Origin: Pseudomonas sp. WN033
GTDB lineage: Bacteria; Pseudomonadota; Gammaproteobacteria; Pseudomonadales; Pseudomonadaceae
Length of the DNA stretch: 64,000 nucleotides
Direction of reading: 5' to 3'
Assembly: GCA_002287035.1 (NCBI GenBank)
Contig: NSKG01000001.1
Coordinates: 248,001 to 312,000 of the forward strand
Part shown: piece by piece, positions 26,684 to 43,891 of the stretch
How positions within the stretch are numbered: the stretch's first letter is position 1
How the letters are laid out: each line of letters opens with the position of its first letter
Made by a program: the position numbers and the translations under genes
The notes under the pieces: model-generated
Database searches by the model: none
Told to the model about the DNA's origin: nothing
Seen by the model: the letters and a program-made list of their open reading frames with translations, nothing else

Positions 26684-26709
26684 GGGGACGACCCTGCTAC
26701 GTCGCTACA

Positions 26710-29271
26710 TCATTGTCCCAGCCTGCGCAGGTTCTCCTGAGCAGCCGTATTACCCGCGGCTGCGGCCTGACGGTAGAGGCTGATTGCTCGACTGAGGTTG
26801 CGATCACCGCCTTCGCCATTTTCATGCATCATGCCGAGCAGGTTCATAGCGGGCACATAACCTGCTTCAATAGCGTCACCAAGATACTTCCTGGCCATGC
26901 CGTAATCCTGCCGCACACCCGGTTCGTTTCTATACATTTGCCCAAGCGAGTACATGGCCTCGGCAACTCCCATGTTTGCGGCAATGCCATAGAGTCTCAA
27001 CGCTTCATCAAGGTTTTGCTCAACCCCGGCACCTTCACGAAAATAAAGCGCAAGGTTACTGATCGAGATTGGGCTGCCTTCCTTCGCAGCCAAGATCATC
27101 AAGGCAGCGGCCTCTTCCTTGTTCTGCTTAACCACCGAACTGCCTGCGTTCAGTAATATCGCCAGGTTATTCATGGCCGCAGGACTGCCTGCCTGGGCCG
27201 CTCTCTCGTAGTAAGCGAGAGTCCTGAGCGGGCTAGCGTTGCCGCTTAAGCCTTTCTCACTGAACCAGCCCAGCAAGTAAAGTGCGTGGGGGCTACCCCT
27301 GGCGGCCTCTTCCTCTATCAGTGGCATAACTTCAGCAACCAGTTGCTGGGCCCTGGCCTGATCCTTTTCAACACCCGATCCCAGCCATTGCAGCTTGGCC
27401 ATTTCGGCTTTTGCCAGGGGATGACCCTGGGCTGCGGCCTTGGCATAAAAGGCATAGGCTTTATTTTCGTCATCGCCATACCAATACCAGATCTTCACTG
27501 CCTGCTCAAAATCACCACTTCCCGGATAGCGATGAATTTCGGCAGTGACCCACGATGGCTGGGTGTGGGGTACTTCTATCGGCACGCTGTCACGCACTGC
27601 CCAGGAGCTGCTCCATGGCTTCGACACAAACTGGCCAATAAATATTGCAGCCACTACCACCCCAACGGCCAGTGCAGCGGTAGAAACAACAACCAGCAGT
27701 TGTACCAGCCTGGCCCAAATGGCCCGTCCCTGATAGCGTTTCGCCGCGCGCCAGAGGCCTATCAGCAGCAACACGCTGTAGATGATCTGCACTGTCAGGA
27801 CCAGCCCGAAAGCCGCAACCTGGACATCCGTGCCCTCAATCACCTGATCTATCACGGCATACACAGGATTGAACAAGAGCCCGACCAATACGCCATAAAC
27901 CCAGTACGTGCGGGCTAGTCCATAGTCGCCATCGATCAGCTTGCGCAGAAAACCCTTGCCGGATAACCCAGGGGCTTGCTGCTCGGCAGATTCATCCTCA
28001 AGCAGTATCACCTTCAGCAACAGATCACCCGGCTCACCACCATTGCGGCTTGGACAACCCTGCCCCTTCAGCCGCAGAGTGTCGCCATGGCGGGTTCCGC
28101 TCGGCACTGTCACCTTGAAGGTGCGTTTTTCCTCACCCACAAGGCGCCCCGCGTATCCAGCTTCCCCGTACACGCTCGAAGGCTCATCGTACTCATACTG
28201 TGGAATGGAGAGCGTGACCTGAGTGGCACCTCCCTTGAGGGCGAGGCTCTGGTTCAGTTGCAGGTCACCACGTAACGAATCACCCTGGCGTGGACCGTCG
28301 TGGATGGTGAAAAAGGGTGTCGACTTGGTTGCTGCTTCTTCCTTTACCTGGGATTGCGGAGCCTCATCGAGCTGTTCAATCATCTCAAGCAACTGCGAGA
28401 CTGACTGAGGGCGCTGCTGTTCGTTCAGTGCCATACAGCACTTGACCAGCTCGATAAAAGCTGGCGAATAGCCTGGCGGAAGCTGTTCCGGCGTCACCGC
28501 CGCCGGATCCGGCAACTGCCGGTACGAGGCCATCATGCGGTTTTCGACCTTGGGCGGTTCACAACCCATCATTACTCGCCACATGACCGCGCCTATGGCG
28601 TAGATATCGGTCCAGGGCCCCAGCGCCCCATCGTCTTCAACCTGCTCCAATGCGGCATACCCAGGCGTATGCGCACTCCTGGACTTGCTGTGACGGGAGA
28701 AATCCTGTTTGGCCGCACCAAAGTCCAGCAATACCGGTTGCTCGTCAGCGCGCCGGATGAAGATATTGCCCGGCTTGATGTCACGGTGCAGCACGTCATG
28801 TTCATGCACATAGGCCAGCCCGCTGAGCAGTGGCCGCAAGAGCGTCAGCAGCTCTTCCTGAGTCATCGGCCGGCCCTGCTGCTCCCGGCCCCTGATCAAC
28901 TCCGACAGCGGCATGCCATCCTCAAAATGCATAACCAGATAGGCGGTACCATTGGCCTCGAAGAAGTTCTGGCAGCGTACGATGTTGTTATGCTCGCTGA
29001 AACGCACAAGCTGTTTGGCTTCACGCATGAAGCGCTCGAGTCCAGCTTGATAGTCGTCGGCGTCACGACTGCTTTGCGGATGTACCGTCAAGGCCTCGCG
29101 GACTGCGATTTCATTGGGAAGGTACTCCTTGATCGCCACTTCAGTGTCGAGATGGCGATGCCTGGCACGGTAAACAATACCGAACCCCCCGGTGCCGAGC
29201 ACGCCGCCAATGACGTACTTGCCATCCAGCTCGGTTCCCTTGGGCAGGGCTCTTTTGTTATCCGTGTCCAT
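26710..29271 (-). CDS. Membrane Ser/Thr protein kinase with DnaJ-C-like segment and Sel1 repeats
   Basis: An 853-residue protein. Kinase domain about 18-310: GTGGFG (26-31), VAIKEYLP (K48), LHRDIKPGN (HRD 162-164) and LLDFGAAKQ (DFG 183-185), so it looks active. Residues about 390-440 resemble the C-terminal substrate-binding part of DnaJ (VTVPSGTRHGDTLRLKGQG, GDLLLKVIL). Three hydrophobic helices follow (about 465-560), then seven or so Sel1-type repeats (about 610-853; A-x-G-x-x-x-A-x-x-x-L patterns such as AAQGHPLAKAEMAKLQWLGSG). The kinase is thus cytoplasmic and the Sel1 part depends on topology. AAGGAA precedes the ATG. It is the last gene of the leftward arm of the kinase/FHA locus, 72 bases after the second kinase gene. 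Confidence 0.9.
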   Translation of the reverse strand: MDTDNKRALPKGTELDGKYVIGGVLGTGGFGIVYRARHRHLDTEVAIKEYLPNEIAVREALTVHPQSSRDADDYQAGLERFMREAKQLVRFSEHNNIVRCQNFFEANGTAYLVMHFEDGMPLSELIRGREQQGRPMTQEELLTLLRPLLSGLAYVHEHDVLHRDIKPGNIFIRRADEQPVLLDFGAAKQDFSRHSKSRSAHTPGYAALEQVEDDGALGPWTDIYAIGAVMWRVMMGCEPPKVENRMMASYRQLPDPAAVTPEQLPPGYSPAFIELVKCCMALNEQQRPQSVSQLLEMIEQLDEAPQSQVKEEAATKSTPFFTIHDGPRQGDSLRGDLQLNQSLALKGGATQVTLSIPQYEYDEPSSVYGEAGYAGRLVGEEKRTFKVTVPSGTRHGDTLRLKGQGCPSRNGGEPGDLLLKVILLEDESAEQQAPGLSGKGFLRKLIDGDYGLARTYWVYGVLVGLLFNPVYAVIDQVIEGTDVQVAAFGLVLTVQIIYSVLLLIGLWRAAKRYQGRAIWARLVQLLVVVSTAALAVGVVVAAIFIGQFVSKPWSSSWAVRDSVPIEVPHTQPSWVTAEIHRYPGSGDFEQAVKIWYWYGDDENKAYAFYAKAAAQGHPLAKAEMAKLQWLGSGVEKDQARAQQLVAEVMPLIEEEAARGSPHALYLLGWFSEKGLSGNASPLRTLAYYERAAQAGSPAAMNNLAILLNAGSSVVKQNKEEAAALMILAAKEGSPISISNLALYFREGAGVEQNLDEALRLYGIAANMGVAEAMYSLGQMYRNEPGVRQDYGMARKYLGDAIEAGYVPAMNLLGMMHENGEGGDRNLSRAISLYRQAAAAGNTAAQENLRRLGQ

Positions 29272-29343
29272 GACAATGTTCCTTCGCTTGTGTGCAGCCA
29301 GCTGATAGCCAGTGCCTGTCGATTGTTATGCAACCCGCTGCCA

Positions 29344-30747
29344 CTAGCGGCAACCCATGGCTCTTTCGCGAGCGAGAAGATTCAATACCTGACTGCGTTC
29401 AGCGTCGCTGAAGAGAGTGTTGAAAACCAGTTCAGAGTCAGACTGGGTACAACCCTCGTTGCCCAGCAGGGTGATCAGTTGATCGGTCCTGAAGCAATAG
29501 CCGTGCTGTTTGTACAGCCGGTTGCGCTCAAGGCTGAGTTCCTGGCAACTAGCCTGGTCATCGGAGCTGGCTTCGTCGGTTGCAGACCCTGAATTGCCGC
29601 CAGGCCGTTGCTCGGCACGTAACTCCGTGCGAGGGCCACCTGCATCAGGCGACTGCAGCCAAAACGCCATGAGCGTACCTACAGCAGCCAGTAGCACGGC
29701 AGCTATACCGATACGCCGATACCAATGCCCGGCGGCTATAGGTGCAGGACTCTCGGGCTGAGCGTCCGGTTCAGGGTGCTGCGCTGGAGTATCCTGGTGT
29801 TGCGGCTCTGGATTTTCTGCAGGCATGTCCGGCACGGGCGACAGGCGCAGGCTCTGAACCACCTTGAGCAATACTTGAACGGACTGCGGCCGGCGTGCTT
29901 CATCCAGTGCCATGCAGTCGTGCATCAACGTCAGCAGTGCGTCACACGCGTCAGCAGCAACCGGACTAGGCGGCACTGCAATGGGGTCAGGCTGCCCGCG
30001 CAGTGTTGCAGACAGACGCATTTCGGTCCTGGGGGGATGTGCTCGGTAAAGTATTCGCCAGATGACCGCGCCGATGGCGTAAATATCGGTCCATGGCCCC
30101 AGGTTACCTTGGTCCATCAGTTGCTCCGGAGCGGCATATCCCGGAGTGAAGGCGGCGACGGAAATACTGTTGTTTGAAAAAACCTGTTTGGCTGCGCCGA
30201 AATCGAGCAGCACTGGCTGACTGTCAGCCCGGCGAATGAAGATGTTTGCTGGTTTGAGGTCGCGATGCCAGACATTGCGCTGATGTACATACAGCAAACC
30301 GCTCAACACACTTTCGAGCAGTTCCAGAAGCTGCTCCCGTGACAGCGCACTGCCGCGTTCTTCATGCATGGCAAGCAACTCGGAGAGCGGCACGCCCTCT
30401 TCGTAACTCATCACCAGATAGGCCGTGCCGTTGGCCTCGAAAAAGTCAATGCAACTGACAATGTTCGGATGCCCGGCCAGCCGCACCAACTGCCTTGCTT
30501 CCTGAACAAAGCGTTGCAGGCCAAGCTCGTAATCCTCGCTAACTCGACTGCTGGCTGCACAGATGGACTGCCCGTCACGCACAGCCAGCTCCAGAGGCAG
30601 GTACTCCTTGATGGCAACAATGGTTTCCAGCACCCGGTGCCGGGCCTTGTACACAATCCCGAAGCCGCCGACACCAAGCACCTCGGACAACAGATATTTG
30701 CCATCGAGCTCAGTCCCGACCGGTAAAGCGTTCTTGATTTCAGTCAT
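29344..30747 (-). CDS. Ser/Thr protein kinase with C-terminal YARHG domain
   Basis: A 467-residue protein. Kinase domain about 18-300 with GVGGFG, VAIKEYLP (K47), WHRDLKPAN (HRD 161-163) and LLDFGAAKQ (DFG 182-184). A Pro/Glu-rich linker (305-340) leads to one transmembrane helix (about 347-364), and the C-terminal ~65 residues are a YARHG-type domain (LSLERNRLYKQHGYCFR... LFSDAERSQVLNLLARERA), an extracytoplasmic module. The kinase would be cytoplasmic and YARHG periplasmic. It starts nine bases after the stop of the PP2C-peptidase-FHA gene, so the two are co-transcribed. Its kinase domain is closely similar to that of the neighbouring 853-residue kinase, suggesting duplication. Confidence 0.92.
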   Translation of the reverse strand: MTEIKNALPVGTELDGKYLLSEVLGVGGFGIVYKARHRVLETIVAIKEYLPLELAVRDGQSICAASSRVSEDYELGLQRFVQEARQLVRLAGHPNIVSCIDFFEANGTAYLVMSYEEGVPLSELLAMHEERGSALSREQLLELLESVLSGLLYVHQRNVWHRDLKPANIFIRRADSQPVLLDFGAAKQVFSNNSISVAAFTPGYAAPEQLMDQGNLGPWTDIYAIGAVIWRILYRAHPPRTEMRLSATLRGQPDPIAVPPSPVAADACDALLTLMHDCMALDEARRPQSVQVLLKVVQSLRLSPVPDMPAENPEPQHQDTPAQHPEPDAQPESPAPIAAGHWYRRIGIAAVLLAAVGTLMAFWLQSPDAGGPRTELRAEQRPGGNSGSATDEASSDDQASCQELSLERNRLYKQHGYCFRTDQLITLLGNEGCTQSDSELVFNTLFSDAERSQVLNLLARERAMGCR

Positions 30748-30756
30748 GGGATTCCA

Positions 30757-33700
30757 TCAGCACGGGCATTTCTCTTGCTTGAGTTGGTAGGCGAATCCGG
30801 CAATCGTCAGTATCTGCCCTTGCCGTAGAGGCATGATTACAAACGGCTTGATCGCACGGCCGTCGATAGCGCTGCCGTTCGAGCTGTTCAAATCCTCGCA
30901 ATGCAATTGGCCGTCGAGCCGCCGCAGGCGCACATGTCGCCGTGAGACCTGACGACTTTCCATGATCACGTGACAAAGCGCATGGGCACGGCCTATGACT
31001 TGCCCTTCCGGGTTGGTCAGCAGGCTTTCGTGCAAAGTGATGTTTTCCGAGCCGTCGAGAGCTTTGAGCAGCCATTGCTCACTGGACGCCACAGGGCTGC
31101 GGACCAGATTCGGTGCCGCTGTTGGCTCAGGGGTGATTGCTGACGGCCGCTGAGGCCCGAAGTACCTAGGATTGAACAGTTTTGGTTTGGGTCGGCCAAG
31201 GTACAACAGCAACAGCCCACCGAGCAGCAAGGCGCCCAATACCGCGTACCAGACAGCCAGCGGTAGCTGGAGCACACTCAGCGGCTCACTGCGGGAAACT
31301 GCCGGTTCGCCCGGGATATCGGCCTGTGGCGGGGGCGGCACAGACGTCGGGGCTGGTGCGGGTACTGGAGTGGGTGCCGGGATACCAGGCGCTGGCTCCG
31401 GCACAGGAGGCGCAGCTGGCGGCACGGCAATCGGTGGCCGCTGCGGCACCGGCAACCAGCGACCCGGCACGCCAATGGCATCGAAGGCCTGATGTACGCT
31501 TTGCCATTGGGGTGAGCCTTCACCGAACAATACGGTGGCGGCGTAGGCCATGCCGATTCTGGCCATTTCGTAATCGCTGCTGGGCGTCAGCGTATAGGCA
31601 GCAGCATAGGCTGCAATGCGTGCCGTATCCTTGATGCCCAAGGGATGTTCAACCCTGACGCCCCTGCCGAGCCGGCGGTGCTGGCCACCTTCGGCCATCA
31701 GGTAAAACCCATGCCCCATGACATTGGCACCGTCATGCACGCCCATGTTGCTACGGTAATCAGCATAATGATCTGGAATGCTGGGATGTACACGTTTGGG
31801 CTGCTGCATGTCGCGGATTATGCCGCTGGTGTGGCGTAGCTGCCAAAATGCCGAGCTGTACTGCCAACTGGAAACTTCCGGAGTATCCAGCGAACCACCC
31901 GACTCCCGCCAGGCACGATAGGCAACGCCGACCATGTCGGCCAGCGCCTCGTTCAATGCGCCCGAAGCCCCGCTACCCTTGAGTCCGCTACCGTTGGATA
32001 CGATGCCGTGGGCAAACTCATGCCCGAACACCTCAAGCAAAGGCATGACATTGTCGGGAACGGCGAGAAAATTCAGGCTGGGGTACCAGGATGCGTTGAA
32101 AGCGTCACCGTCACATTGAATTCCAGGCCTCGCATCATTGTAGCGAACACCTACCGCTCCCTCGAGCGTCAGACCGTCATTGTCAATGCTGTTCATATCG
32201 AACACGCGAGACAGGAAGGTATAGCTTGCGCCCAATTCATCGAACATGCGGTCAACACGGGCAGATCCGCCGGAGGGGCGGCCTTCGCTTCGTCCCAGGC
32301 CATTATCCAGGGCGAATCTGCGAACTCTTTGGACTTCAGGCCAGTCGATCAGATGACCAATGCCTTGGTGCTGACAGGCGCTGGACATATCCCATACTGT
32401 GCGTCGCATCACGCTATTGTTCAACGGTATGTGCTCAAGGCTGTTGCCGTTGAGCGCATCCACAAAGACTTCGAACAACTGAAATCCGGCCTGCGTGGCA
32501 TATCCGGTCAACTGCCATGCCAGCCTGATCTCGGTGCCACGCGCCCAGTACACCAAAGCAGCAGGAACATCCGGATCAGGCCTCAGTGCCGCGCTGGCAT
32601 AGGCCTGCTCAGCCGTCACCAGAGGATCGACAGGTAACTCTTCAAGGGCCAGATGCTTGCCATGCACCAGCGCCGGATAGCCCTGAGGGTTGAGTAGCAC
32701 CACGCTGTCCAGACCGATCACCGGCAGGCCTTGATACTGCTGCTGCAGACGAATGACGGTTATGCCACCGGGCGCTGAACTGGGCGACTCAACACGCAAG
32801 GTATTCTCACCCTCTAGCCCGAGTCCGGGCGCCAGCGTGCCGGTCAGCCAGGCGTCAAGTTCCTTGGGGTCAGTAAGCGGTTTGTCCGACCAGGGCCGGT
32901 CGGAGGCAAAACCGCCATCATCACTGCGGTGCGCAAGCGGAAATTGTTCCTGGGCGCTGAGCGTGGGGGCATACAGCAACACGGCAAGCACACCCAAAAT
33001 CAACGCCAGCAACAGCAAGGGAATCGTCAGCCTGAGGGATCCAGAGCCTGCCGCCCGACCTGACTCTGCAATAGCAGTGACCGCACTGTGCGCCAAACCT
33101 TCGCTCCGTCGCAGCAATACTGCGGTGCAGTTGTCATGCCGGTCGCTGGCCTGTTCGAGGGCCGCGGTCAAACAACCCTGCAGGGCTGTCTGCAGGTCTC
33201 CATCGCTCATCATCAATGCATGCTGCGCCTGAGAGTCAAGGATCTCCCAAAAGCCGTCAGTACAGACGATAAAACCTGCCCCCGCCGCCAGATCCCACTC
33301 TGTGAATTCCGGTTCGGGCAATTGCTCGCCGCCAATGGAAGTTATCAGGCTGGACTGGCCAGAGTCAGTGGCCATCTGAGCTTCGGTAATCTTTCCGGAA
33401 AGAACCCTGAGCTGGGCAACAGAGTGGTCAACAGTGCGTTTTATCAGACCCGCCGGACCGTACTGCATGACCCTGCTGTCGCCAACGTGCACCGACAGCG
33501 CTCGGGTATCATCCAGCCACAGGGCCACTAGCGTACTGCGAGCATCAAGCTCTGCCACGGCACTCATGGCATTGACCCGTGAATGCGACTCGCTGACCAG
33601 TGTCTGCAGCAGTTGTTCGGGAGTACGTTGAAGCCGTTGAGTCCAAAGCTCTTGCGCCGTGTCACATATGACTCGGGCAGCCTCACTGCCGCCACTGTGC

Positions 33701-33831
33701 CCCCCCATGCCATCAGCTACCACAATCAGGATTTGACGGCTCTGGGAGTCCTGGAAAGTGGCTTGCGCATCCTGATTTTCATCGCGACCGCCAATATGGG
33801 AGATTGAGGCAAGCTGCCATTTTTCTGCCAT
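30757..33831 (-). CDS. PP2C phosphatase-M4 metallopeptidase-FHA fusion membrane protein
   Basis: A 1024-residue fusion. Residues 1-245 are a PP2C phosphatase (GGRDENQD with N19-Q20-D21; VVADGMGGH 38-45; HVGDSR; VCTDGFWE), cytoplasmic. A transmembrane helix (about 268-288) follows. Residues about 300-790 form a propeptide-like region and a thermolysin-type M4 peptidase: HEFAH (H604, E605, H608), GALNEALAD (E628) and GVHDGANVMGHGFYLMAEGG. A Pro/Ala-rich linker (795-845), a second helix (about 857-877) and a cytoplasmic FHA domain (about 925-1020; IGRAH, SRRHV, SSNGS) complete it. Both ends are cytoplasmic and the peptidase is periplasmic. The start at 33831 has GGGGAG upstream. It heads the leftward arm, divergent from the FHA/TolQ arm. 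Confidence 0.93.
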   Translation of the reverse strand: MAEKWQLASISHIGGRDENQDAQATFQDSQSRQILIVVADGMGGHSGGSEAARVICDTAQELWTQRLQRTPEQLLQTLVSESHSRVNAMSAVAELDARSTLVALWLDDTRALSVHVGDSRVMQYGPAGLIKRTVDHSVAQLRVLSGKITEAQMATDSGQSSLITSIGGEQLPEPEFTEWDLAAGAGFIVCTDGFWEILDSQAQHALMMSDGDLQTALQGCLTAALEQASDRHDNCTAVLLRRSEGLAHSAVTAIAESGRAAGSGSLRLTIPLLLLALILGVLAVLLYAPTLSAQEQFPLAHRSDDGGFASDRPWSDKPLTDPKELDAWLTGTLAPGLGLEGENTLRVESPSSAPGGITVIRLQQQYQGLPVIGLDSVVLLNPQGYPALVHGKHLALEELPVDPLVTAEQAYASAALRPDPDVPAALVYWARGTEIRLAWQLTGYATQAGFQLFEVFVDALNGNSLEHIPLNNSVMRRTVWDMSSACQHQGIGHLIDWPEVQRVRRFALDNGLGRSEGRPSGGSARVDRMFDELGASYTFLSRVFDMNSIDNDGLTLEGAVGVRYNDARPGIQCDGDAFNASWYPSLNFLAVPDNVMPLLEVFGHEFAHGIVSNGSGLKGSGASGALNEALADMVGVAYRAWRESGGSLDTPEVSSWQYSSAFWQLRHTSGIIRDMQQPKRVHPSIPDHYADYRSNMGVHDGANVMGHGFYLMAEGGQHRRLGRGVRVEHPLGIKDTARIAAYAAAYTLTPSSDYEMARIGMAYAATVLFGEGSPQWQSVHQAFDAIGVPGRWLPVPQRPPIAVPPAAPPVPEPAPGIPAPTPVPAPAPTSVPPPPQADIPGEPAVSRSEPLSVLQLPLAVWYAVLGALLLGGLLLLYLGRPKPKLFNPRYFGPQRPSAITPEPTAAPNLVRSPVASSEQWLLKALDGSENITLHESLLTNPEGQVIGRAHALCHVIMESRQVSRRHVRLRRLDGQLHCEDLNSSNGSAIDGRAIKPFVIMPLRQGQILTIAGFAYQLKQEKCPC

Positions 33832-33977
33832 CACTCTCCCCATTACCTTCCTGAACGAAAGATTGTTTTACAATTGACCGGCTAGTGGTTGCAATAATGC
33901 GTCGGATTGTCGCATTCTGCAATGCAGATTGCTGGCTCGCAAAAGGACGCCCCTCACGGCTAGCGGGCAGTACAGCC
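33832..33977. promoter_or_regulatory. Shared divergent promoter region of the kinase/FHA locus
   Basis: AT-rich DNA (TTGTTTTACAATTG) next to nested inverted repeats: AATGCG (33896-33901) with CGCATT (33911-33916), then the near-palindrome CTGCAATGCAG (33917-33927). A TGTCGCA half-site at 33908-33914 equals that in the WYL operators, though the second half is spaced differently. Both arms of the locus probably start here. Confidence 0.45.
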
Positions 33978-34379
33978 ATGTACTCAATTGTTACAACTGG
34001 AACAACAACAATGGCGCCATTCGTTACATTTCGGGTTGGGCGGTCGCTCGAATCGGATCTTGTGCTGGATGATCCCGGTATCTCGCGTAAGCATATGGAA
34101 ATCACTCTGACATCGGATCAGCGCTATTTTGTTGTCGACTGCGGAACCACAGGCGGTACCCGCGTGCAGCGAAATGGCGAGTGGAAAGATCTGTCTCAGG
34201 ATTTCATCGCCCCAGCGGAACTGCTTGAGCTGGGCGATAGGCAATACCGGTTTGCGGAACTGATTGCACGCTTACCGGCTCGCTCGACTACCCTCACGAA
34301 GCAACCTGAACCCCTGTCGGTCCGGCCGCGCCGAAAGAGCAGTACCGGTGAAGTCGAATTCACTCCTTCGCAGAGATAA
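33978..34379 (+). CDS. FHA domain protein
   Basis: A 133-residue cytoplasmic protein that is essentially one FHA domain: FVTFRVGRS (G21-R22), DDPGISRKHMEI (S36, H39), GGTRVQRNGEW, followed by a basic tail (RPRRKSS). FHA domains bind phosphothreonine, so it can read the products of the nearby kinases. The frame is open back to 33885 (GTG) with an ATG at 33897; 33978 is preferred because it leaves the divergent promoter non-coding, but the start is not certain. It is the first gene of the rightward arm and lies four bases before the TolQ-like gene. Confidence 0.75.
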   Translation: MYSIVTTGTTTMAPFVTFRVGRSLESDLVLDDPGISRKHMEITLTSDQRYFVVDCGTTGGTRVQRNGEWKDLSQDFIAPAELLELGDRQYRFAELIARLPARSTTLTKQPEPLSVRPRRKSSTGEVEFTPSQR

Positions 34380-34382
34380 CAG

Positions 34383-35186
34383 ATGCGACTTCTGGCCAAG
34401 CATGACCACCAATATCGAATCAATGTAGCGTTGATTTCACTGATTCTCGGCGCTATTACCCTCACACTGCTGAGCCTGCTCCTGCCTGCCGCGCAAACTC
34501 CCGGTGAGATCAATATTTCCGCCGTGCTGCTCGACCGAGCCAGCAGCCTCTACCCCTTTACCCTGCAGAACCTCATGTGGCTGATTTTCTTTGTCGGACT
34601 TGGGGAGTTGTGGGTGCGTTTTCTGCGCGCCAGCGCCGAGCAGCGTCAACAGCAGATCGGCCTGTTGCCCGAAGATGAAACGACCATGCTCAGGGCCAAG
34701 GACCTGGCACCGATTTACCTCAGCATCCAGCAGCATGCCGATGCCCGCTATTTTGCACTGCCAAGGCTTTTGCAGCGGGTCATCCTGCAGTTTCAGGCCT
34801 GCCGTTCGGTCGGTCAGGCCAATGCTCTGATGAACTCCAGCCTGGAGCTGATGCAGCACGAAATCGATCTGCGCTACAACATGCTGCGCTACATCATGTG
34901 GCTGATCCCCACGCTGGGATTCATCGGCACTGTGATCGGTATCGCACTGGCATTGTCGGATGCCGCCAACATGCCTGACCTGCAGGATAGTGCCGCTGTG
35001 GCCGCCTGGGTGATTACCCTTACCGGCAGCCTGGGTCTGGCATTCAACACAACGTTGATGGCTTTGCTGATGTCCGCCGTGCTGGTGTTCAGCATGCACA
35101 TCTGCCAGGGCCGTGAAGAAATGGTACTTAACAATGCGGGTCAGTACTGTCTGGACAATCTGATCAATCGCCTCTACGAAGACTGA
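34383..35186 (+). CDS. MotA/TolQ/ExbB family proton-channel-like protein
   Basis: A 267-residue inner-membrane protein. Four hydrophobic helices: about 13-34, 60-80, 169-191 and 212-240. The last two carry the family signature: WLIPTLGFIGTVIGIALAL and ITLTGSLGLAFNTTLMALLMS, the channel-lining helices of ExbB/TolQ/MotA. In TolQR, ExbBD and MotAB such subunits form a pentamer around a dimer of a one-helix partner bearing a conserved Asp, turning proton flow into motion. The partner here may be the VWA protein at 38139, whose N-terminal helix has SALDLFASALGAF. It is four bases after the FHA gene and 18 before the next FHA gene, in one operon. Confidence 0.88.
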   Translation: MRLLAKHDHQYRINVALISLILGAITLTLLSLLLPAAQTPGEINISAVLLDRASSLYPFTLQNLMWLIFFVGLGELWVRFLRASAEQRQQQIGLLPEDETTMLRAKDLAPIYLSIQQHADARYFALPRLLQRVILQFQACRSVGQANALMNSSLELMQHEIDLRYNMLRYIMWLIPTLGFIGTVIGIALALSDAANMPDLQDSAAVAAWVITLTGSLGLAFNTTLMALLMSAVLVFSMHICQGREEMVLNNAGQYCLDNLINRLYED

Positions 35187-35204
35187 TTTCACAAGGAGTC
35201 GCAC

Positions 35205-35867
35205 ATGCCGATCAAACGCGGGCCCGATGGCACCCCTGTCGATATTCCCACCCAGCCCCCTCGCCGAGACGCTAGCGATGAAGCCGGTACCTGGACCCCA
35301 AACAGACGAGCCGGATCCTTGTTCCCTGACGAACCAGCCACCGAGCCGCCAGCCAGAAAGCAGAATATCGACGCTGATCGCGCTTCTCCCCCTCCCGCTG
35401 CAGCCAGTAATGCTGAACCTCGCACCGTGATCCACGGCGGTTACCGCAGATCTGGCAGCTCAGCCGAGCAAGCCACTCCATCACCGACCAGCGCCGCCAG
35501 CACAGGCGCCGACCCTATGGAGAACCCTCCAGCCGGTTGGCTGGTGGTGGTCGACGGGCCAGGCAAAGGCAGTGTGCTGACCATAGGGCATGGCCAGAAC
35601 AGCATGGGACGCTCCAGCAATGAGCGAATCTGCCTGGACTTCGGCGATGCCGAGATATCGCGCAGCAACCATGCTGTCATTACCTATGATCCCCGCGGTC
35701 GGCGTTTCTATGTCCAACAGGGCAGCGGCACCAATCTGGTTTACATCGGGGACATGCCGGTACTGGCGCCCATGCCGCTGGAAAACCATGCCGAGCTGCA
35801 AATTGGCAATACACGGCTGCGTTTCATTGCCCTGTGCGGAGCCGAGTTTTCATGGCAGGACACTTGA
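35205..35867 (+). CDS. FHA domain protein with disordered N-terminus
   Basis: A 220-residue protein. Residues 1-105 are Pro/Ser/Arg-rich and probably disordered (MPIKRGPDGTPVDIP, RRDASDEAG), a likely kinase substrate region. Residues about 108-215 are an FHA domain with NSMGRSSNE (G-R), EISRSNHAVI (S, H), YIGDMPV and LQIGNTRLRF. AAGGAG is well placed before the ATG. It overlaps the PP2C gene by 16 bases. Phosphorylation of the tail by either kinase, and reading of phosphothreonine by the FHA, would make it a phospho-relay adaptor (inference). Confidence 0.9.
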   Translation: MPIKRGPDGTPVDIPTQPPRRDASDEAGTWTPNRRAGSLFPDEPATEPPARKQNIDADRASPPPAAASNAEPRTVIHGGYRRSGSSAEQATPSPTSAASTGADPMENPPAGWLVVVDGPGKGSVLTIGHGQNSMGRSSNERICLDFGDAEISRSNHAVITYDPRGRRFYVQQGSGTNLVYIGDMPVLAPMPLENHAELQIGNTRLRFIALCGAEFSWQDT

Positions 35868-36670
35868 GCGAACTGGCCGAAGACTCCGGCATCCAACTGG
35901 ATGCCGCCTGGGCTCAGATCCTTGGCACGCGCGAAACTCAGCAGGATTCAGCCTGCATTACTCGCTGGGACAACGGCTTTCATCTGCTGTTGCTGGCCGA
36001 TGGCATGGGCGGGCACCGTGGTGGAGCTGAAGCCAGCCAACTGGTACTCACTGCCATGCGCGAAGCTTTCGTCGAAAGCCAGCAGACCGACTTGCCAGAA
36101 CGCCTGCTGGCATCGCTGCAAGCTGCCAACAATCAGCTCGACCAATACCTGGCGCAGCATCCAGATATGGAAGGCATGGGCACTACCCTGTTGGCAGCCT
36201 GCGTTGACCAGGACCACCTGTACTGGATCAGTGTAGGCGACAGCCCGATGTGGCTGGTAAGGCAAGGCCGTATGCGCCGGCTGAATGCCAATCATTCAAT
36301 GGCAGCGGTACTCGACGAGCAATTGGCTGCTGGCAAGGTCAGCGCCGAACAAGCGGCCGATCCGAAGGCCCGCGCGCAATTGCTGGAGGCGGTAATGGGT
36401 GACTCAATCGAGTTGATTGACCTGCCACGCTCACCACTGCAACTGCAGGCCGATGACCGTCTGCTGTTGGCCAGTGACGGCATCGAAAGCCTGCCGCCAG
36501 AAACAATGGAAGAGCTGCTCAAGCGCCTGGCGCTGGTCGATGCGACAACCCAGGTTGACCACTTGCTCAACGCGGTCAGTGCTTTGGAGCGGCCCTATCA
36601 GGACAATACCAGCCTGATTCTGCTCAGAGTACTCACTGAACACAACACTACCGGCCAACAACCATCCTGA
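35852..36670 (+). CDS. PP2C-type protein phosphatase
   Basis: A 272-residue stand-alone phosphatase. PP2C motifs in order: GTRETQQDSA (acid-pair region), LLLADGMGGHRGGAEAS, GMGTTLLAACV, ISVGDSPMWL, LLASDGIES and YQDNTSLILL (late metal Asp). It would remove phosphate from targets of the two kinases. The ATG at 35852 overlaps the FHA gene; GGAG lies about ten bases upstream. A GTG at 35834 is a less likely start. It is cytoplasmic with no membrane helix, in contrast to the fused PP2C at 33.8 kb. Confidence 0.9.
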   Translation: MAGHLSELAEDSGIQLDAAWAQILGTRETQQDSACITRWDNGFHLLLLADGMGGHRGGAEASQLVLTAMREAFVESQQTDLPERLLASLQAANNQLDQYLAQHPDMEGMGTTLLAACVDQDHLYWISVGDSPMWLVRQGRMRRLNANHSMAAVLDEQLAAGKVSAEQAADPKARAQLLEAVMGDSIELIDLPRSPLQLQADDRLLLASDGIESLPPETMEELLKRLALVDATTQVDHLLNAVSALERPYQDNTSLILLRVLTEHNTTGQQPS

Positions 36671-36684
36671 CTGTGGAGATTCAT

Positions 36685-38142
36685 ATGCAAGCCATTCGGC
36701 GATGGGGCATCTCAAGCCTGTTGTTGTTCAGTTCCGCAGTGCTAGCCGATCCGGTGATGCACCTGGAGGTCAAACGTGGCAGTACTCTTGCTGCTTCCGG
36801 CGTGGCAACACTGGTAGCCGATGGATACTTGCTGACCAGCCTGACGCTGACATCACTTGGCAAGGAGTTGCTGGTCAGCCCACCCGGCTCCCCAGAGTCA
36901 TCTGCCGCACGCCTGGTAGCGCAGTCTGAAACAGACGATCTGGCCTTGTTACAAGTATCCGGACTGGCCGGCACACCGGTCCGACTGGCCCGGGAAATGC
37001 CTGAACGTGGCCGAACCCTGGACGTGGTCGGACGCGACAATCGCAAACAGCGTGGCGTGCTCCTCAGCGAGCCGACCGCTCAACAGGTTGCCCATAGCGC
37101 CATGTATGGCCAGAATGCCTTCGGTTCACCATTATTGAACAATTGTGGCGACCTGGTCGGCATCAATCGGGCTCAGGCCAGAGGACTGCTGAACCGCCGT
37201 CTTGACGCTCCGAGCCTGCCACTGCGTGCAGCACCGCTGAGCGCGATCACCGAGTTGCTGGCCAGCGCCGACGTCAAGCTGGAACAGGCCAGCGAGCGCT
37301 GCCTGTCTCAGGAAGAAATGCTCGATCAGGCTGGCACCGAGGCGCGTGAAAGCGCCGAAGAGCAACAACGTCTTATAGAGCTTCAGGAACAAATCAACCA
37401 ACGCAATGCCGAACTCGAACGCGCTCGTCTTGAGATCGAAGCGGCACTGACCGAGCAACAAAGGCAACTGGAACAGCAGCGCACCACGCTGGATGAAGCT
37501 GAACGCAGCAAGGAAGAACTGGAACAGGAAAAACAGCGCCTGCTCGAAGCAGCCGAAGCCATTCGTGAAGACAAGGAACAGCTGGAGTCGAAGCAGAGCG
37601 AGCTGGAAGCTCAACGTGAAACCCTGGAACAACAGCTGCAGTCGACCCAAGCCAATCTCCAGCATGTCATCTATGCCGGTCTTGGGCTGCTGGGATTGCT
37701 TATCATCGCCTTTGCAGTACTGCGCAAACGCCGTAAACAACTGCAGCAGGAACAACACCTGAACGCTCAGGCACGCGAGGCTCTGGATGCTGCCAGCCTA
37801 ACCTGGCAGGACATCCTGCTCAGCGGGGAAGATCCGGATGGCAAGACCCTGCGCATCAAGATCAATGGTACCGCGCTGATCCGCAGCAACGATGGACAGA
37901 TCATCGGTCGACACCCGGCCTCTGCCGACTACGTGATCAATATTCCCGAAGTTTCCCGCGAGCACCTGCACCTGGTCATTCGAGATAATCGATTGATGGT
38001 TGTTGATCTCGCCAGCCGCAACGGCACACGTATTAACGGCACGCGACTGGAAGGTAACCAACCGGCAGAACTGCATGATGGTGACACGCTCAGCCTGGGT
38101 ACGATTGAGTTAAAAGTGGCCTTCATGGATTCAGCCCAATGA
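36685..38142 (+). CDS. Inactive trypsin-like domain-coiled coil-TM-FHA protein
   Basis: A 485-residue exported protein. Signal peptide about 1-21 (MQAIRRWGISSLLLFSSAVLA). Residues about 25-195 look like a trypsin/DegP-type fold: VATLVADGYLLTSLTLTS at the His position (no His), TDDLALLQV (Asp85 kept), and GQNAFGSPLLNNCGDLVGIN at the Ser position, where Phe146 stands for the Ser of GNSGG. Two of three catalytic residues are therefore missing. Residues about 200-325 are a long coiled coil rich in Glu/Gln, 328-347 a membrane helix, and 395-480 an FHA domain (IIGRHP, EVSREHLHLV, SRNGT). The dead protease is periplasmic and the FHA cytoplasmic. The ATG has GGAG upstream. It overlaps the VWA gene by four bases. 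Confidence 0.9.
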   Translation: MQAIRRWGISSLLLFSSAVLADPVMHLEVKRGSTLAASGVATLVADGYLLTSLTLTSLGKELLVSPPGSPESSAARLVAQSETDDLALLQVSGLAGTPVRLAREMPERGRTLDVVGRDNRKQRGVLLSEPTAQQVAHSAMYGQNAFGSPLLNNCGDLVGINRAQARGLLNRRLDAPSLPLRAAPLSAITELLASADVKLEQASERCLSQEEMLDQAGTEARESAEEQQRLIELQEQINQRNAELERARLEIEAALTEQQRQLEQQRTTLDEAERSKEELEQEKQRLLEAAEAIREDKEQLESKQSELEAQRETLEQQLQSTQANLQHVIYAGLGLLGLLIIAFAVLRKRRKQLQQEQHLNAQAREALDAASLTWQDILLSGEDPDGKTLRIKINGTALIRSNDGQIIGRHPASADYVINIPEVSREHLHLVIRDNRLMVVDLASRNGTRINGTRLEGNQPAELHDGDTLSLGTIELKVAFMDSAQ

Positions 38143-39023
38143 AGATCCGCAACCGTGAACTCAATATTTTCAGTATGTCTGCGCTGGATCTATTCGCCTC
38201 CGCCCTGGGCGCTTTCATCATTCTCGCGGTTGTTGCCCTGCCCTTCTTCCCCAACACCAGCCTGTTCAGTGATGCCGAACTGCAAGCCCGCCTGGAAGAA
38301 GCCGAAACAACCATTGGCAAGTTGGAAAGCAGCCTGGAACAAACCCGTTCGCAACGTGATAAAGCCGAAGAACAGGCCGCAGACCTTGAGCAGCGCAATC
38401 AGGAGTTGTCTGAAGAACTCTCACAAATCCGTGTTGAAGACATGGATCTGGTCATTCTAATCGATGTCACCGGCAGCATGGGCGAGTCCGTCGAAGGACT
38501 GAAAAAAGAGATTCAAAACCTGATCAAGGTACTCGACAAAATTACTCCCTCGCTTGCAGTAGGCATCGTCGCTTACGGTGACCGAAAATACGAAAGACCG
38601 GTTACCGTGCAACGGTTGATGAGAACAGATAACGCGGCTGAACTGGCTGCGCTGGAGCAGTTTGTCAATGATTTGCGACTGCAACTTGGCATAGGTAGCG
38701 GCAGCAACAACGAAACACCTGAAGCCCTGCACCTGGCCATGGCGCGTCTGCCAACCCTGAACTGGCGCAGCGAAGCCCCTGAGCGACATGTGGTGATTTT
38801 TACCGATGCCCCCCCTTATCCGGAGGAGCTGAACAATACGGTCTCCATGGCCCGTGACTTTGCCAGCGCACCGCACTATCGTGTTTCTGCCGTACTGGAA
38901 GGCAAAAGCAATATTGCCGCCGAAGCGCTCAAGGCCATTGCCGACGCCGGCAATGGCCGATTCGTCGACAGCAACCATGGTGAGACTTTTATGACCTCAC
39001 TGTTGCTCGCGGTTTTGCGCTGA
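38139..39023 (+). CDS. Membrane-anchored VWA domain protein with TolR/MotB-like N-terminal helix
   Basis: A 294-residue protein. The N-terminus is one membrane helix, SALDLFASALGAFIILAVV (about 14-36), with Asp17 near its start. The Asp position and helix character recall the proton-binding helix of TolR/MotB/ExbD. A coiled coil (about 45-98) follows, then a von Willebrand A domain (about 100-290) with MIDAS DVTGSMG (D109, T111, S113), VGIVAYGDR and VVIFTDAPP (late Asp). Where the MotB family has an OmpA peptidoglycan domain, this protein has VWA. Start and stop are coupled (ATGA) with the preceding gene. It is the probable partner of the TolQ-like subunit. Confidence 0.88.
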   Translation: MKIRNRELNIFSMSALDLFASALGAFIILAVVALPFFPNTSLFSDAELQARLEEAETTIGKLESSLEQTRSQRDKAEEQAADLEQRNQELSEELSQIRVEDMDLVILIDVTGSMGESVEGLKKEIQNLIKVLDKITPSLAVGIVAYGDRKYERPVTVQRLMRTDNAAELAALEQFVNDLRLQLGIGSGSNNETPEALHLAMARLPTLNWRSEAPERHVVIFTDAPPYPEELNNTVSMARDFASAPHYRVSAVLEGKSNIAAEALKAIADAGNGRFVDSNHGETFMTSLLLAVLR

Positions 39024-39039
39024 TCAGCGTACCTCTGCC

Positions 39040-39483
39040 ATGCGCCTTTACCAACTGATGGCTCGACTGGACTGGAAGCAACTTGAACAGAGTCTTGTAC
39101 GGCTTTACCCCGACAGTGCCAGGCATTTGCCTGACTTTGCAGTCGCCTACCGGCAACTGCAACTGATTGAGCCGCTATCCAGTGACATGATCCTGCAAGT
39201 CATCCCCATGCCTGGCAGCGCTCTGCATGTTTATGGCTGCAATGGTAGTCGTGTTGACGTAGCCGGCGCGGATAACAGCGAAGAAGCACCAATGGCCCGT
39301 TTCAACCTGAGTGCAACAGACTGGGCCGAGTGGCTTGGCATGCGGATATCCCCTGCATTTCTGGCAGTCTGCCCGGCGGACGAACTGGTCACTCATTGCC
39401 TGTGGGAAATGACCTATTACGGTTTCAGCCCCGAGGCCATCCGCCAGCGCATTCGTCATTCAACCTCGGGAGCCACTCCATGA
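39040..39483 (+). CDS. Conserved hypothetical protein in the kinase/FHA locus
   Basis: A 147-residue soluble protein. Landmarks are WKQLEQSLVRLYP, NLSATDWAEWLGMRISP and a C-terminal HCLWEMTYYGFSPEAIRQRI. No signal peptide or membrane segment and no catalytic motif are visible. I do not recognise it with certainty; the WEMTYYGFSPE tail suggests a conserved uncharacterised family. It lies 16 bases after the VWA gene and its stop overlaps the next start (ATGA), so it belongs to the same operon. Confidence 0.75.
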   Translation: MRLYQLMARLDWKQLEQSLVRLYPDSARHLPDFAVAYRQLQLIEPLSSDMILQVIPMPGSALHVYGCNGSRVDVAGADNSEEAPMARFNLSATDWAEWLGMRISPAFLAVCPADELVTHCLWEMTYYGFSPEAIRQRIRHSTSGATP

Positions 39484-40907
39484 CGACAATGGTCACCCAT
39501 CTGCGCACCGCTCTGCTGCTGGCACTGACCAGCATTGCCCCAGGCAGCCTGGCCAACACCGATTTCGTCCCGCACCCGGCTTGCCTTGATCTTGACCTGT
39601 ATCCGCTCAGCCAGCAGAAACATCTGCCTGCGACCCTGCCATTGAGCAACTGCGCCGCGGCTAAAACTGCCGGCCCGGTTGAAGATCAGCTGGGATTCAT
39701 TACCTACCAACGGCCACGTGACAACGCCGGCAACCCGCTTGGCTCGGTAGGTTATCAACGCATGGCCGGGCGCCATGCAGAGGTCGCCTACCTGTTGCAG
39801 ACAAACAGCGGCGGCAATGCAGTATTTCTTGAGCTGCTGACGGGGCGAGAACAACCTGGCGCTGCTGGTCTCGAGCTCCTCGACGCCCGGCGTTATGGTC
39901 TGGGTGATCATTGCAACAACGAGTTGGTCGCGCTGTGGAACGAACCCGATGACAGCCTGCGCATGACGCTGCGGGCGTCCGGCCTGACACTGTTGCAGGC
40001 ACTGGTTGCGCCACGCGGCCTGCCACCAGAGGTGCGGCGAGATATGCCGACCGTCCGTGCACTGTTTGACTCAGGCGCTCTGACCCGCCTGGAGTCGCAG
40101 GAACGCCTGTGCCCAGGTGTCATCGAATATCAACTGCAGCCCCCACATACTGAATGGGAGCTGCAGAGGCTGAGTATTGATGTATCTGAGCCAGATGATG
40201 AGATTGTTCTTGAACAACTGGTCGAACTGGTTCCCGCGCTGTCGAATGACGGTGCCGCCATGCTGCTTGAAGAACACCTGCCGGCACTGCGAGCCAAACT
40301 ATTGAGCGCACTGCAGCCGCCACGCATGCCACCGCCGGCCGGTGACCAATCAGACCCGGACTACCTCACTTTCGTGCAATCACTGCGCGACAGCGTACAG
40401 TCACGCGATGCCGGTGCCCTGCAGGCACTGACCGCAGCGGACGTCATGCTCGGTTTTGGTGGCAGTGGTGGCCATGCGGATCTGCAACAATGGCTGAGCA
40501 CGCCACAAATTGCCGTACCGTTCTGGCAGGAGCTGGAACAACTACTGCAACTCGACAGTCTGCGCATGGGTGCCAACACTGTCTGTTTGCCCTATACCAG
40601 CTGCGCCCCGGAGCGCATACCGGAGAACTACACGCCGTTTGCCACGCTAGTAGTAACGCAGAACGACGCCAGGCTGCTTGAACGCCCGCAAGCCGACGCG
40701 CGCGTACTGCGCATACTTGACTACGATGTACTGCAGGTAGCCGATCCGCTGGAGGAGCCTGAGGCCGACTTTGTGCAGGTGCGCCTGTATGATGGCGAAA
40801 CAGGCTATCTGCCACTCAGCGCTGTGCGTTCACCACTGGCACTGCGCATGGAAGTTCAGCGCCGTGCCAGTGACTGGCAAATCATCTCACTGCTGGCTGG
40901 TGACTAA
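39480..40907 (+). CDS. Secreted or periplasmic protein with C-terminal SH3-like region
   Basis: A 475-residue exported protein. The signal peptide is MTTMVTHLRTALLLALTSIAPGSLA. The middle is alpha-helical and acidic with Cys pairs (CLDLDLY...SNCAAAK, DHCNNELVALWNE, LCPGVIEYQ). The C-terminal ~90 residues look like a bacterial SH3-type domain (ATLVVTQNDARLLERPQADARVLRIL...FVQVRLYDGETGYLPLSAVRSP), often peptidoglycan- or peptide-binding. The ATG at 39480 overlaps the previous stop by four bases, which fixes the start. I do not recognise a named family. Confidence 0.78.
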   Translation: MTTMVTHLRTALLLALTSIAPGSLANTDFVPHPACLDLDLYPLSQQKHLPATLPLSNCAAAKTAGPVEDQLGFITYQRPRDNAGNPLGSVGYQRMAGRHAEVAYLLQTNSGGNAVFLELLTGREQPGAAGLELLDARRYGLGDHCNNELVALWNEPDDSLRMTLRASGLTLLQALVAPRGLPPEVRRDMPTVRALFDSGALTRLESQERLCPGVIEYQLQPPHTEWELQRLSIDVSEPDDEIVLEQLVELVPALSNDGAAMLLEEHLPALRAKLLSALQPPRMPPPAGDQSDPDYLTFVQSLRDSVQSRDAGALQALTAADVMLGFGGSGGHADLQQWLSTPQIAVPFWQELEQLLQLDSLRMGANTVCLPYTSCAPERIPENYTPFATLVVTQNDARLLERPQADARVLRILDYDVLQVADPLEEPEADFVQVRLYDGETGYLPLSAVRSPLALRMEVQRRASDWQIISLLAGD

Positions 40908-40949
40908 GCAGCCTCTACCGCCGATGTTGATGCCTATTAGGAGACGCGA

Positions 40950-41249
40950 ATGCTTCCTTTGTTAGCCGCCCTGGTGTTTTCCGGCAGTCTCCAGGCTGCC
41001 CCCGCCCACCCCTGTGATCAGGTGTTCAGCCAGGCCGCCATCAGCCCTTCGCCAGAGCTGGCGCTAGAGCGCCTGGGGGGCTGCCTGGCTGCTCCGGCTG
41101 AGCCACATGTGCATGCACGCGTTGCCGTGGAAATGGCTCAATTGTCACTTGATAATGGGCGCCATGAGGACGTCTCGCGCTATCTGGAAATCCTCAGATT
41201 GATGCTGCAGACTTGGCCGCCGGCTGACAGTTCAACACACGCAAACTGA
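40950..41249 (+). CDS. Small secreted protein
   Basis: A 99-residue protein with signal peptide MLPLLAALVFSGSLQAAPA and a short mature domain (CDQVFSQAAISPSPELALERLGGCLAAP, VEMAQLSLDNGRHEDVSRYLEILRLML), containing two Cys that could form a disulphide and a TPR-like helical pair. AGGAGA lies just before the ATG. Last gene of the rightward arm; its 3' end overlaps the convergent gene at 41194 by 56 bases. No recognised family. Confidence 0.6.
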   Translation: MLPLLAALVFSGSLQAAPAHPCDQVFSQAAISPSPELALERLGGCLAAPAEPHVHARVAVEMAQLSLDNGRHEDVSRYLEILRLMLQTWPPADSSTHAN

Positions 41250-41502
41250 ACGCCTCGAACTCCACATCCACTGGTTTCTGTAGTCGTTGACTCGCAACCA
41301 GACATGGCAGCACATTGGGAGTGGCCAGTAGCAGCGCCGCCTTCTCCCTGACACTCACTCGGTAACCCTCCTCCGCCGCCACGAAGTGGATGGCCTGGAC
41401 CGTCAAGCGCTCGTTCAACAGCGGCTCGCTCGGGGCAGCCTGGGCCAGGGCGCTGAACGCAAGCAACAAAGCACAGGCGCTGCAGCGCATCCAACTGTCC
41501 AT
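41194..41502 (-). CDS. Small secreted protein, unknown
   Basis: A 102-residue exported protein, with signal peptide MDSWMRCSACALLLAFSALAQA. The mature part (LTVQAIHFVAAEEGYRVSVREKAALLLA, VDVEFEAFSLRVLNCQ) looks beta-rich with two Cys. The start overlaps the stop of the upstream secreted protein gene by one base, so the two are translationally coupled. It overlaps the convergent 40950 gene by 56 bases, which suggests one of the two has a wrongly placed end or that both are real and mutually antisense. Confidence 0.6.
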   Translation of the reverse strand: MDSWMRCSACALLLAFSALAQAAPSEPLLNERLTVQAIHFVAAEEGYRVSVREKAALLLATPNVLPCLVASQRLQKPVDVEFEAFSLRVLNCQPAAKSAASI

Positions 41503-41978
41503 CAGTTGGCGTCCGCCCCCATGGATTCCATCAGGGCTTCGAAAGCGCCTACTGATCCCAGACTACGAGCCCGGGCCAACAAACCGGCACACCCCTCTTC
41601 AATTGAACGGTATTGCTGATTAGCCTGTTGCCGCAGCTCTGGTGTCCCTGCACGCAAAGCCTCTACATGATTATGGCCAATGGCAGCGGCATACAGGCGA
41701 TCCTGCTCAAAGTCGCTGGCGAAATCACGCTGATGCAAGCGCTGCAACTGACTAGCCATCCGATTGTAGGTTTCGCCACGCTCACGCACCTCACGCGCAC
41801 GAAGCAAATGCACGGAGCCGGCATATTCCGGGGCCGGTTGACTGGCGATTGTCTCCGCTTCATAGCTGCTCAAAATCGGCATGTAACCCAAACACAGCCC
41901 AGGCGTAAACTGCGCGCTGGCAACTCCAGGCGCACTCAGCCCCAACAACAGTAGCAGACGCGGTACATAGGACGGCAT
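41502..41978 (-). CDS. Secreted helical protein, unknown
   Basis: A 158-residue exported protein with signal peptide MPSYVPRLLLLLGLSAPGVASA. The mature part is helical and charged (AGSVHLLRAREVRERGETYNRMASQLQRLHQRDFASDFEQDRLYAAAIGHN) with two Cys (CLGYM, EEGCAGLL). I do not recognise a family. It is coupled to the 41194 gene, and both converge on the kinase/FHA locus; whether they belong to it is unclear. Confidence 0.65.
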   Translation of the reverse strand: MPSYVPRLLLLLGLSAPGVASAQFTPGLCLGYMPILSSYEAETIASQPAPEYAGSVHLLRAREVRERGETYNRMASQLQRLHQRDFASDFEQDRLYAAAIGHNHVEALRAGTPELRQQANQQYRSIEEGCAGLLARARSLGSVGAFEALMESMGADAN

Positions 41979-42127
41979 ATTCAGCTCTCCGCAAATAATT
42001 GCACTATAGCATCAAGCTTTGGCTGATCAGGTTTGAGCGTAACGGTGTTTCTGGTTGGTGTCGTCAGGGGCCTGAGGAATGCCCCAAGCGCGAGCAGATG
42101 CTCGCGCTTCCTGGGCGGACGTTGGGG

Positions 42128-43849: not shown

Positions 43850-43891
43850 GTGGTGTGGGGAGGCTGATTCAGGGGTGGGGATGTCTTTGTG

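Follow-up and report, generated by a model that had tools for sequence, protein, structure and literature searches.

The 64,000-nucleotide stretch of Pseudomonas sp. WN033 DNA analyzed here (the window; contig 1, bases 248001-312000, of an assembly of 23 contigs totalling 4.16 Mb) contains at positions 26710-41249 a cassette of genes that is best read as a horizontally moving unit. From the sequences we predict that it encodes a phosphorylation-gated, ion-driven machine that senses the state of the cell envelope and is controlled by an FHA switch like that of GarA/OdhI; we give this reading as a whole, horizontal movement included, a probability of about 0.45. The core that is inherited together across phyla consists of a TolQ-like protein, a partner with an Asp-bearing helix and a variable head, two soluble FHA proteins (FHA1, FHA2), a third FHA protein that is membrane-bound and has an HtrA-like, VWA or coiled-coil outer part, a PP2C phosphatase and one or more membrane kinases.

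The cassette has two divergent arms separated by a gap of 167 bp (33844-34010), which presumably holds the promoters of both arms; the length of the gap holds if FHA1 starts at ATG 34011. The minus arm encodes a fusion of PP2C, a transmembrane (TM) helix, an M4 peptidase, a second TM helix and an FHA domain, together with two kinases, one carrying a YARHG domain and the other Sel1 repeats. The plus arm encodes, in this order, FHA1, the TolQ-like protein, FHA2, PP2C, an HtrA-like-TM-FHA protein, a TM-VWA protein and the products of three genes of no known family. A preliminary description of this DNA had listed two kinases, two PP2C activities, four FHA domains, a TolQ-like protein, a TM-VWA protein, a dead protease and a peptidase, and Pfam and motif comparisons find all of them. 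Each of the four FHA domains exceeds the Pfam cut-off, and the kinase, phosphatase and FHA motifs appear to be intact. Judging from homologues, the likely starts of FHA1, PP2C and the HtrA-FHA protein are ATG 34011, 35852 and 36685, respectively. The membrane topologies given below are predictions from hydropathy and from a pair of invariant cysteines within the protease domain.

That these genes form a conserved cassette, as the same description proposed, is borne out both by a comparison of neighborhoods and by co-divergence; the block, of about nine genes, is kept together in bacteria that are only distantly related. For this comparison the relatives were fetched with the TolQ-like protein alone and the domain queries were taken solely from the window. 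It covers 16 loci (297 kb in total; loci are designated by L numbers) and excludes L016, L015 (nearly a duplicate of L013), L057 and L058 (both short), and further loci that are short or duplicated (L001-L004, L017-L045 and L076-L084). An FHA domain is present in all 16 loci, and PP2C, a kinase and the partner helix are present in 13 each. The controls were 15 stretches of 20 kb, placed by hand at round coordinates and hence non-random, in eight cassette genomes including the window's own; chance clustering was rejected because none of them contains any of these genes. The 13 loci with the partner helix have one open reading frame (ORF) encoding it, and it is missing only from L006, L007 and L059, which run off the end of the available DNA. 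In addition, the pairwise divergences of seven genes (21 pairs) correlate at 0.67-0.96, values that none of 999 permutations reached for any pair. Genes beyond the block are mostly not common to the relatives.

The presumed motor consists of two proteins. The TolQ/MotA/ExbB-like stator subunit (34383-35186, plus strand; 267 amino acids) matches PF01618 with an E value of 1.9e-9 (37.8 bits, cut-off 22.9). Three threonines, Thr183 (in GFIGTV), Thr223 and Thr224, are invariant across 11 aligned TolQ-like proteins, and these conserved pore threonines fall in the last two TM helices, as in the MotA/TolQ/ExbB superfamily. Its predicted partner (38139-39023, plus strand) has a pore helix, IFSMSALDLFASALGAF, followed by a coiled coil and a VWA domain (E 6e-10, 40.1 bits, cut-off 23.8) that is predicted to be periplasmic. 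This N-terminal helix bears Asp17, and DVTGS is at residues 109-113. In all nine aligned partners R6, I10, F11, A15, D17-L-F-A, A22, G24 and F26 of the helix are invariant. The helix is thus fixed and the head variable: VWA was found in seven of the 13 helix-bearing loci with the query from the window only, and the heads in L008 and L092 match no Pfam family. A sequence comparison of the VWA protein with the PDB gave no match at 0.01, and no member of the ExbD/TolR family was found among the cassette proteins scanned (Pfam and NCBIfam).

The second layer consists of FHA proteins, kinases and phosphatases. FHA1 (34011-34379, plus strand; FHA E 7e-12; ORF listed from GTG 33885) is a small soluble protein with STGEV in its C-terminal tail, and the motif [RK]...[TS]G.[ILV] is present at the C-terminus of 14 of 18 FHA1 proteins. 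FHA2 (35205-35867, plus strand) has a long N-terminal tail with a conserved Thr (EPRTVI) followed by the FHA domain, and its best PDB matches are GarA and OdhI (E 1e-4), which are switched by a phosphorylated Thr in the N-terminal tail. One tail Thr is invariant in all 16 aligned FHA2 proteins. Without any alignment, 14 of 15 FHA2 tails contain [DE].{1,3}T.[ILVM], as compared with a mean of 5.5 and a maximum of 10 in 500 shufflings; L007 is the one without the motif, L092 was not scored, and L013 and L015 were omitted as near copies. These residues in the FHA1 and FHA2 tails are candidate phosphosites. FHA2 shares with GarA/OdhI the FHA domain and the N-terminal Thr tail, but its tail motif, [DE]..T.[ILVM], is not the ETTS of GarA/OdhI. 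The C-terminal tails of FHA1 (RDPxTGE[IV]) and the N-termini of FHA2 (R[GT]PDG.[IVP]) are similar to each other, and may be a shared docking peptide. The PP2C phosphatase of the plus arm (35852-36670; PP2C_2 E 7e-15; ORF listed from GTG 35834) contains ADGMGGH, GDSP, SDGIE and QDNTS.

Both kinases are encoded in the minus arm and carry VAIK, HRD and DFG. The one at 26710-29271 (Pkinase E 3e-40; K45/HRD162/DFG183) has a DnaJ_C-like stretch, TM helices and Sel1 repeats (E 4e-32), and the one at 29344-30747 (Pkinase E 2e-41; K44/HRD161/DFG182) has a TM helix and a YARHG domain (E 1e-8); the Sel1 repeats and the YARHG domain are predicted to be periplasmic. Both match generic kinase models, e.g., mad6 at E 3e-60, with 149.6 bits as compared with the cut-off of 460 for NCBIfam MAD6. 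Five of the seven kinases of relatives that were scanned with Pfam have PEGA, FGE or PG_binding_1 in their ectodomains: PEGA and FGE-sulfatase in L005, L011 and L085, PEGA in L056, and PG_binding_1 plus a beta-helix in L006. We read these ectodomain families as pointing to envelope sensing.

The preliminary description also stated that every FHA membrane protein has its sensor outside and its FHA reader inside. By predicted topology this is correct for two proteins, and it covers just these two, because FHA1 and FHA2 are soluble. One is the fusion at 30757-33843 (minus strand), in which a cytoplasmic PP2C is followed by a TM helix (~265), a thermolysin-type M4 peptidase with an FTP propeptide on the outside, a second TM helix (~855) and a cytoplasmic FHA domain (Pfam). 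Aligned to bacillolysin (4b52), its M4 active site is complete: HEFAH at 608, the downstream Glu in GALNEA and the catalytic His in GVH at 701, which are the features of the family. In L005 (5575-9407) the PP2C-M4-FHA parts are in two adjacent genes, which could be a natural split or a frame error of the assembly.

The other membrane FHA protein (36685-38142, plus strand; FHA E 1e-16; ORF listed from GTG 36673) has a dead HtrA/DegS-like domain outside, a coiled coil, a TM helix and an FHA domain inside. Its trypsin-fold domain scores slightly under the Pfam cut-off (Trypsin_2 E 2e-5, 25.6 bits as compared with 27.6), and we identify the fold because a profile of 10 relatives also matches HtrA-type structures, with MucD best (E 3e-32) and DegS at E 7e-27. 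The catalytic His (YLLTSLTLT) and Ser (NAFGSPLL) are gone from the window's copy. By eye, the full His-Asp-Ser triad is present in L085, L086, L008, L059, L060, L012, L013 and the second copies of L056 and L006; Ser or more is lost in L005 and the first copies of L056 and L006, and in L014 the Ser is replaced by Arg. Both the window and L005 have the M4 peptidase-FHA protein beside a dead HtrA domain. The outer part of a membrane FHA protein can also be a VWA domain, as in L007 and L086 (by eye). We infer that the machine uses the periplasmic protease as an exchangeable tool, and the pattern suggests a core of motor and FHA proteins to which periplasmic protease and VWA modules are attached interchangeably.

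As to how such a machine would work, we propose a ring of five TolQ-like subunits around two pore helices, in which ion flow via the Asp/Thr ring would turn or pull the periplasmic head. The kinase ectodomains would sense the state of the envelope, and a kinase would then phosphorylate the Thr in the FHA2 tail, as in the GarA/OdhI switch, and perhaps the FHA1 tail or a TolQ loop. Docking of the FHA domains would start or stop the motor and couple it to the membrane protease, and PP2C would reset the switch. What the machine delivers is most likely periplasmic work, mechanical or proteolytic, for envelope repair or in response to attack, because no cytoplasmic effector gene was found to be conserved among the loci compared. 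A more specific version posits a new class of motor, in which Ser/Thr phosphorylation and FHA docking act directly on a 5:2 ion motor, the moving head bears an exchangeable periplasmic tool (VWA or another fold) coupled to a membrane protease, and phyla exchange the cassette as an envelope weapon against phages or competitors; it is speculative, and we consider it rather improbable.

Several observations weigh against the proposed machine. By sequence, the TolQ-like family is only weakly similar to solved stators (PomA, E 0.3, over the G.IGT stretch), and the co-divergence correlations are inflated by related acidobacterial rows. In L057 the FHA2 motif match differs from the aligned Thr, and both kinases of L007 are without a known ectodomain family (Pfam). 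L008, on a contig of 919 kb, has TolQ, FHA1, HtrA-FHA and a head protein and no kinase, FHA2 or PP2C within 20 kb; therefore, control by phosphorylation either is not universal or acts in trans. Finally, in L009 and L010 the membrane FHA protein is a coiled-coil TM-FHA protein only, with no protease match, and so the protease is not obligatory.

The distribution of the cassette is patchy. A contig scan with the TolQ-like protein alone found 12 relatives; their record labels are Gammaproteobacteria, Proteobacteria, Alphaproteobacteria, Candidatus Marithrix and Acidobacteria, and also Vicinamibacterales, Vicinamibacteraceae, Holophagales, Thermoanaerobaculia and Desulfococcaceae. In a sample of the window's class the protein is present in six of 369 genomes at E<=1.7e-97, the window's own included, and in a sample of its phylum it is present in one of 398, again the window's own. 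The phylum of the L012 genome has it in three of 247 genomes and that of the L011 genome in two of 198, in each case counting the locus's own genome. Within the genus, the TolQ-like protein has no match at E<=0.001 in 36 congeners, and the cassette occurs in a single genome out of 37. With the nearest congener, as judged by DNA match (90-93% near the site), the window agrees as far as 26687 and then again from 42082, which leaves an inserted segment of 15.4 kb (~26688-42081) with a GC content of 0.58, as compared with 0.60-0.63 in three flanking stretches. One copy of the cassette (L092) is on a conjugative plasmid of Rhizobium leguminosarum. Phage cargo was rejected; there is no match in phage records, and none of four candidate IMG/VR stretches was confirmed.

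The last three genes of the plus arm encode a 147-amino-acid protein of no known family (39040-39483; no PADLOC or NCBIfam match at 0.01), which has a 4-bp overlap with the next gene, a secreted-looking protein of 475 amino acids (39480-40907; no Pfam family at 0.01) with a very weak SH3-like C-terminus (SH3_3 E 0.07 for the longer ORF), and a secreted-looking protein of 99 amino acids (40950-41249) with a signal-like N-terminus by eye. A profile search found no relative of these three genes in 16 other loci. With two genes on the opposite strand they make up five family-less genes at 39040-41978 within the inserted segment, several of which look secreted by eye. In the plasmid copy, a 1610-amino-acid protein of no Pfam family (L092, 14027-18859) lies within the cassette.

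The cassette's site, flanked by a WYL-regulator gene on one side and a zinc-ribbon/formamidase pair on the other, is perhaps an integration hotspot; in the nearest congener (L093, 8315-10107) it is held by HipA-like and helix-turn-helix genes, by eye a HipBA-like pair. The window stretch 10.7-22.7 kb has no match at the same place in that congener, and protein A of PD-Lambda-4 (18674-22555, plus strand; PADLOC E 3e-263, near full length) is encoded 4 kb from the cassette. It was rejected as a member of the cassette because the gene is outside the inserted segment and no B partner was found in the neighboring ORFs scanned. At 43889-45380, a ClpX/ClpB-like AAA protein (44060-45283) lies amid short repeated DNA that differs from the nearest congener.

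These surroundings would suit a Zorya-like anti-phage defense in which phage damage to the envelope is sensed by the motor, whose activity then kills the cell or arrests it. The patchy occurrence (one in 37 in the genus), the position of the Rhizobium plasmid copy, whose first gene is ~3 kb from GajA and GajB (Gabija), the PD-Lambda-4 gene A and the HipBA-like pair all fit such a role. However, no cytoplasmic effector was found to be conserved among the loci compared, PD-Lambda-4 is outside the inserted segment, and several loci adjoin genes that look like housekeeping genes by eye. We also surveyed 93 flanking proteins (at least 200 amino acids; none from the window) hand-picked out of 139, and 93 control proteins (at least 230 amino acids) randomly drawn out of 175, as family tallies only, with 10 proteins traced individually afterwards. 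At E<=1e-25 the flanking proteins gave GajA, GajB, one HEC-02-type protein, one type II methyltransferase, mad3 and SspH/mad8, and the controls gave mad3, HEAT-ARM_XIII and PDC-M26A; the one SspH/mad8 match traced (L011) is FtsK-like by eye. Strong PADLOC matches are only modestly more frequent in the flanking proteins than in the controls. We regard a defense function as unlikely, though worth keeping in view.

Two other explanations seem to us less probable still. The published proposal that VWA proteins with a transpore helix (TPH) transduce force (PMC12204202, in the part available to us), together with the interchangeable head and the fixed pore helix, would agree with a force transducer of the Tol or gliding type that serves envelope upkeep or contact with surfaces, in which the kinases and FHA proteins merely tune and the proteases are quality-control appendages. 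Yet the cassette is accessory, being without a TolQ match in the congeners, and kinase (13), PP2C (13) and FHA (16 of 16) occur with about the same regularity as the partner helix (13), so that this explanation is quite doubtful. The genome also has a type VI secretion system (T6SS), recognized by VipB on another contig, and the same classes of parts could regulate it, or another resident secretion machine, in trans through a threonine phosphorylation pathway; FHA-phosphothreonine control of TssL is shown for Agrobacterium (PMC3953482). The T6SS cluster of this genome, however, already includes its own FHA, PP2C and kinase genes, VipB was found in six of 11 cassette genomes and not in five (some of these are drafts), and the cassette brings its own motor, all of which makes such a role very improbable.

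If the phosphorylation-gated machine is real, a Tol/Exb/Mot-type motor would be under the control of eukaryotic-type kinases, in a genetic unit compact enough for testing whether phosphorylation turns such a motor on or off. Three envelope themes, the stator, the HtrA-type protease and the kinase with PEGA or peptidoglycan-binding domains, would be combined in one horizontally moving cassette.

With regard to known systems, no PADLOC or NCBIfam model suits the gene set, neither as a defense system nor otherwise, and the earlier rejection of a T6SS phospho-module, a TerY triad and Zorya stands. The membrane FHA protein resembles DegS/HtrA in having a trypsin-fold domain tethered to the membrane on the (predicted) periplasmic side, and differs in the added cytoplasmic FHA domain, the lack of a visible PDZ domain and the triad lost in the window's copy. 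The PpkA-PppA-Fha module of T6SS likewise has a Ser/Thr kinase, a PP2C and an FHA reader, but the cassette has its own motor and, by Pfam and NCBIfam, no Tss gene among its proteins; the earlier statement that Tss genes are absent is correct for the cassette and not for the genome, whose T6SS is supplied with its own FHA, PP2C and kinase genes. TerY-P triads have TerD-family genes and a cytosolic VWA protein. The cassette shares with them, and with the VWA/kinase/PP2C neighborhoods described in the part seen of PMC7159879 (eLife 2020 52696), the presence of VWA, kinase and PP2C genes together, but its VWA protein is membrane-anchored by a TM helix and predicted to be periplasmic; no TerD match was found by Pfam in two sets of 10 window proteins, and TolQ, ExbB and MotA do not occur in the main text of that paper. 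Zorya ZorAB has the same channel residue logic (PMC11890865), i.e., MotAB-type core residues, and a similar accessory distribution. However, the ZorA2 match (E 1.9e-5) is limited to the 86 residues 160-245, NCBIfam ZorA scores 17.7 bits (cut-off 500), and the cassette proteins include no OmpA-like ZorB and no ZorC, ZorD or ZorE, with the kinase/FHA layer instead.

The closest precedent is in PMC12204202 (Mol Biol Evol 2025 msaf138), which, in the part available to us, predicts motors of TolQ and TPH-vWA proteins with AF3 models and places the vWA genes "predominantly" in heterologous pairs. A second, distant TolQ branch is commoner than the window's (27 of 369 class genomes, E 1.8e-29 to 6e-21), and the window queries found FHA in three, PP2C in one and a kinase in two of its 25 loci; the complete set is therefore a feature of the window's branch. 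L062, L064, L067 and L073 of the second branch encode TolQ, a protein of 428-463 amino acids and two TM-anchored proteins with a SFLDxxxCGFGA-like helix. The 428-463-amino-acid protein has an FHA match in L062, L067 and L073, and a kinase is present in L067 and L073. Of the TM-anchored proteins scanned with Pfam, the one from L067 and one of the two from L064 have VWA; both loci also encode PEGA/FGE proteins. This branch is probably the published paired TPH-vWA family. The motor section of that paper, as seen, names no kinase, FHA or protease, and the second family fits it better than the cassette does. The cassette has in common with the published motors a TolQ-like gene adjoining a TM-vWA gene, the pore Asp, the Thr ring and the lack of TolR/ExbD; it differs in its single head protein and in the kinases, PP2C, four FHA domains and HtrA/M4 proteins. 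In the open-access papers searched we found no description of a TolQ/VWA motor combined with kinases, PP2C, GarA-like FHA proteins and proteases, and in the part seen of PMC2754498 the relevant terms are present apart from each other rather than in combination. "Undescribed", as the system had tentatively been called, appears to hold for the combination of kinases, FHA proteins and proteases but not for the idea of an ion-driven TolQ and VWA motor. Judged by its sequences, the cassette is a variant of the predicted TolQ/TPH-vWA motors, and what is new in it is the putative phosphorylation layer and the proteases.

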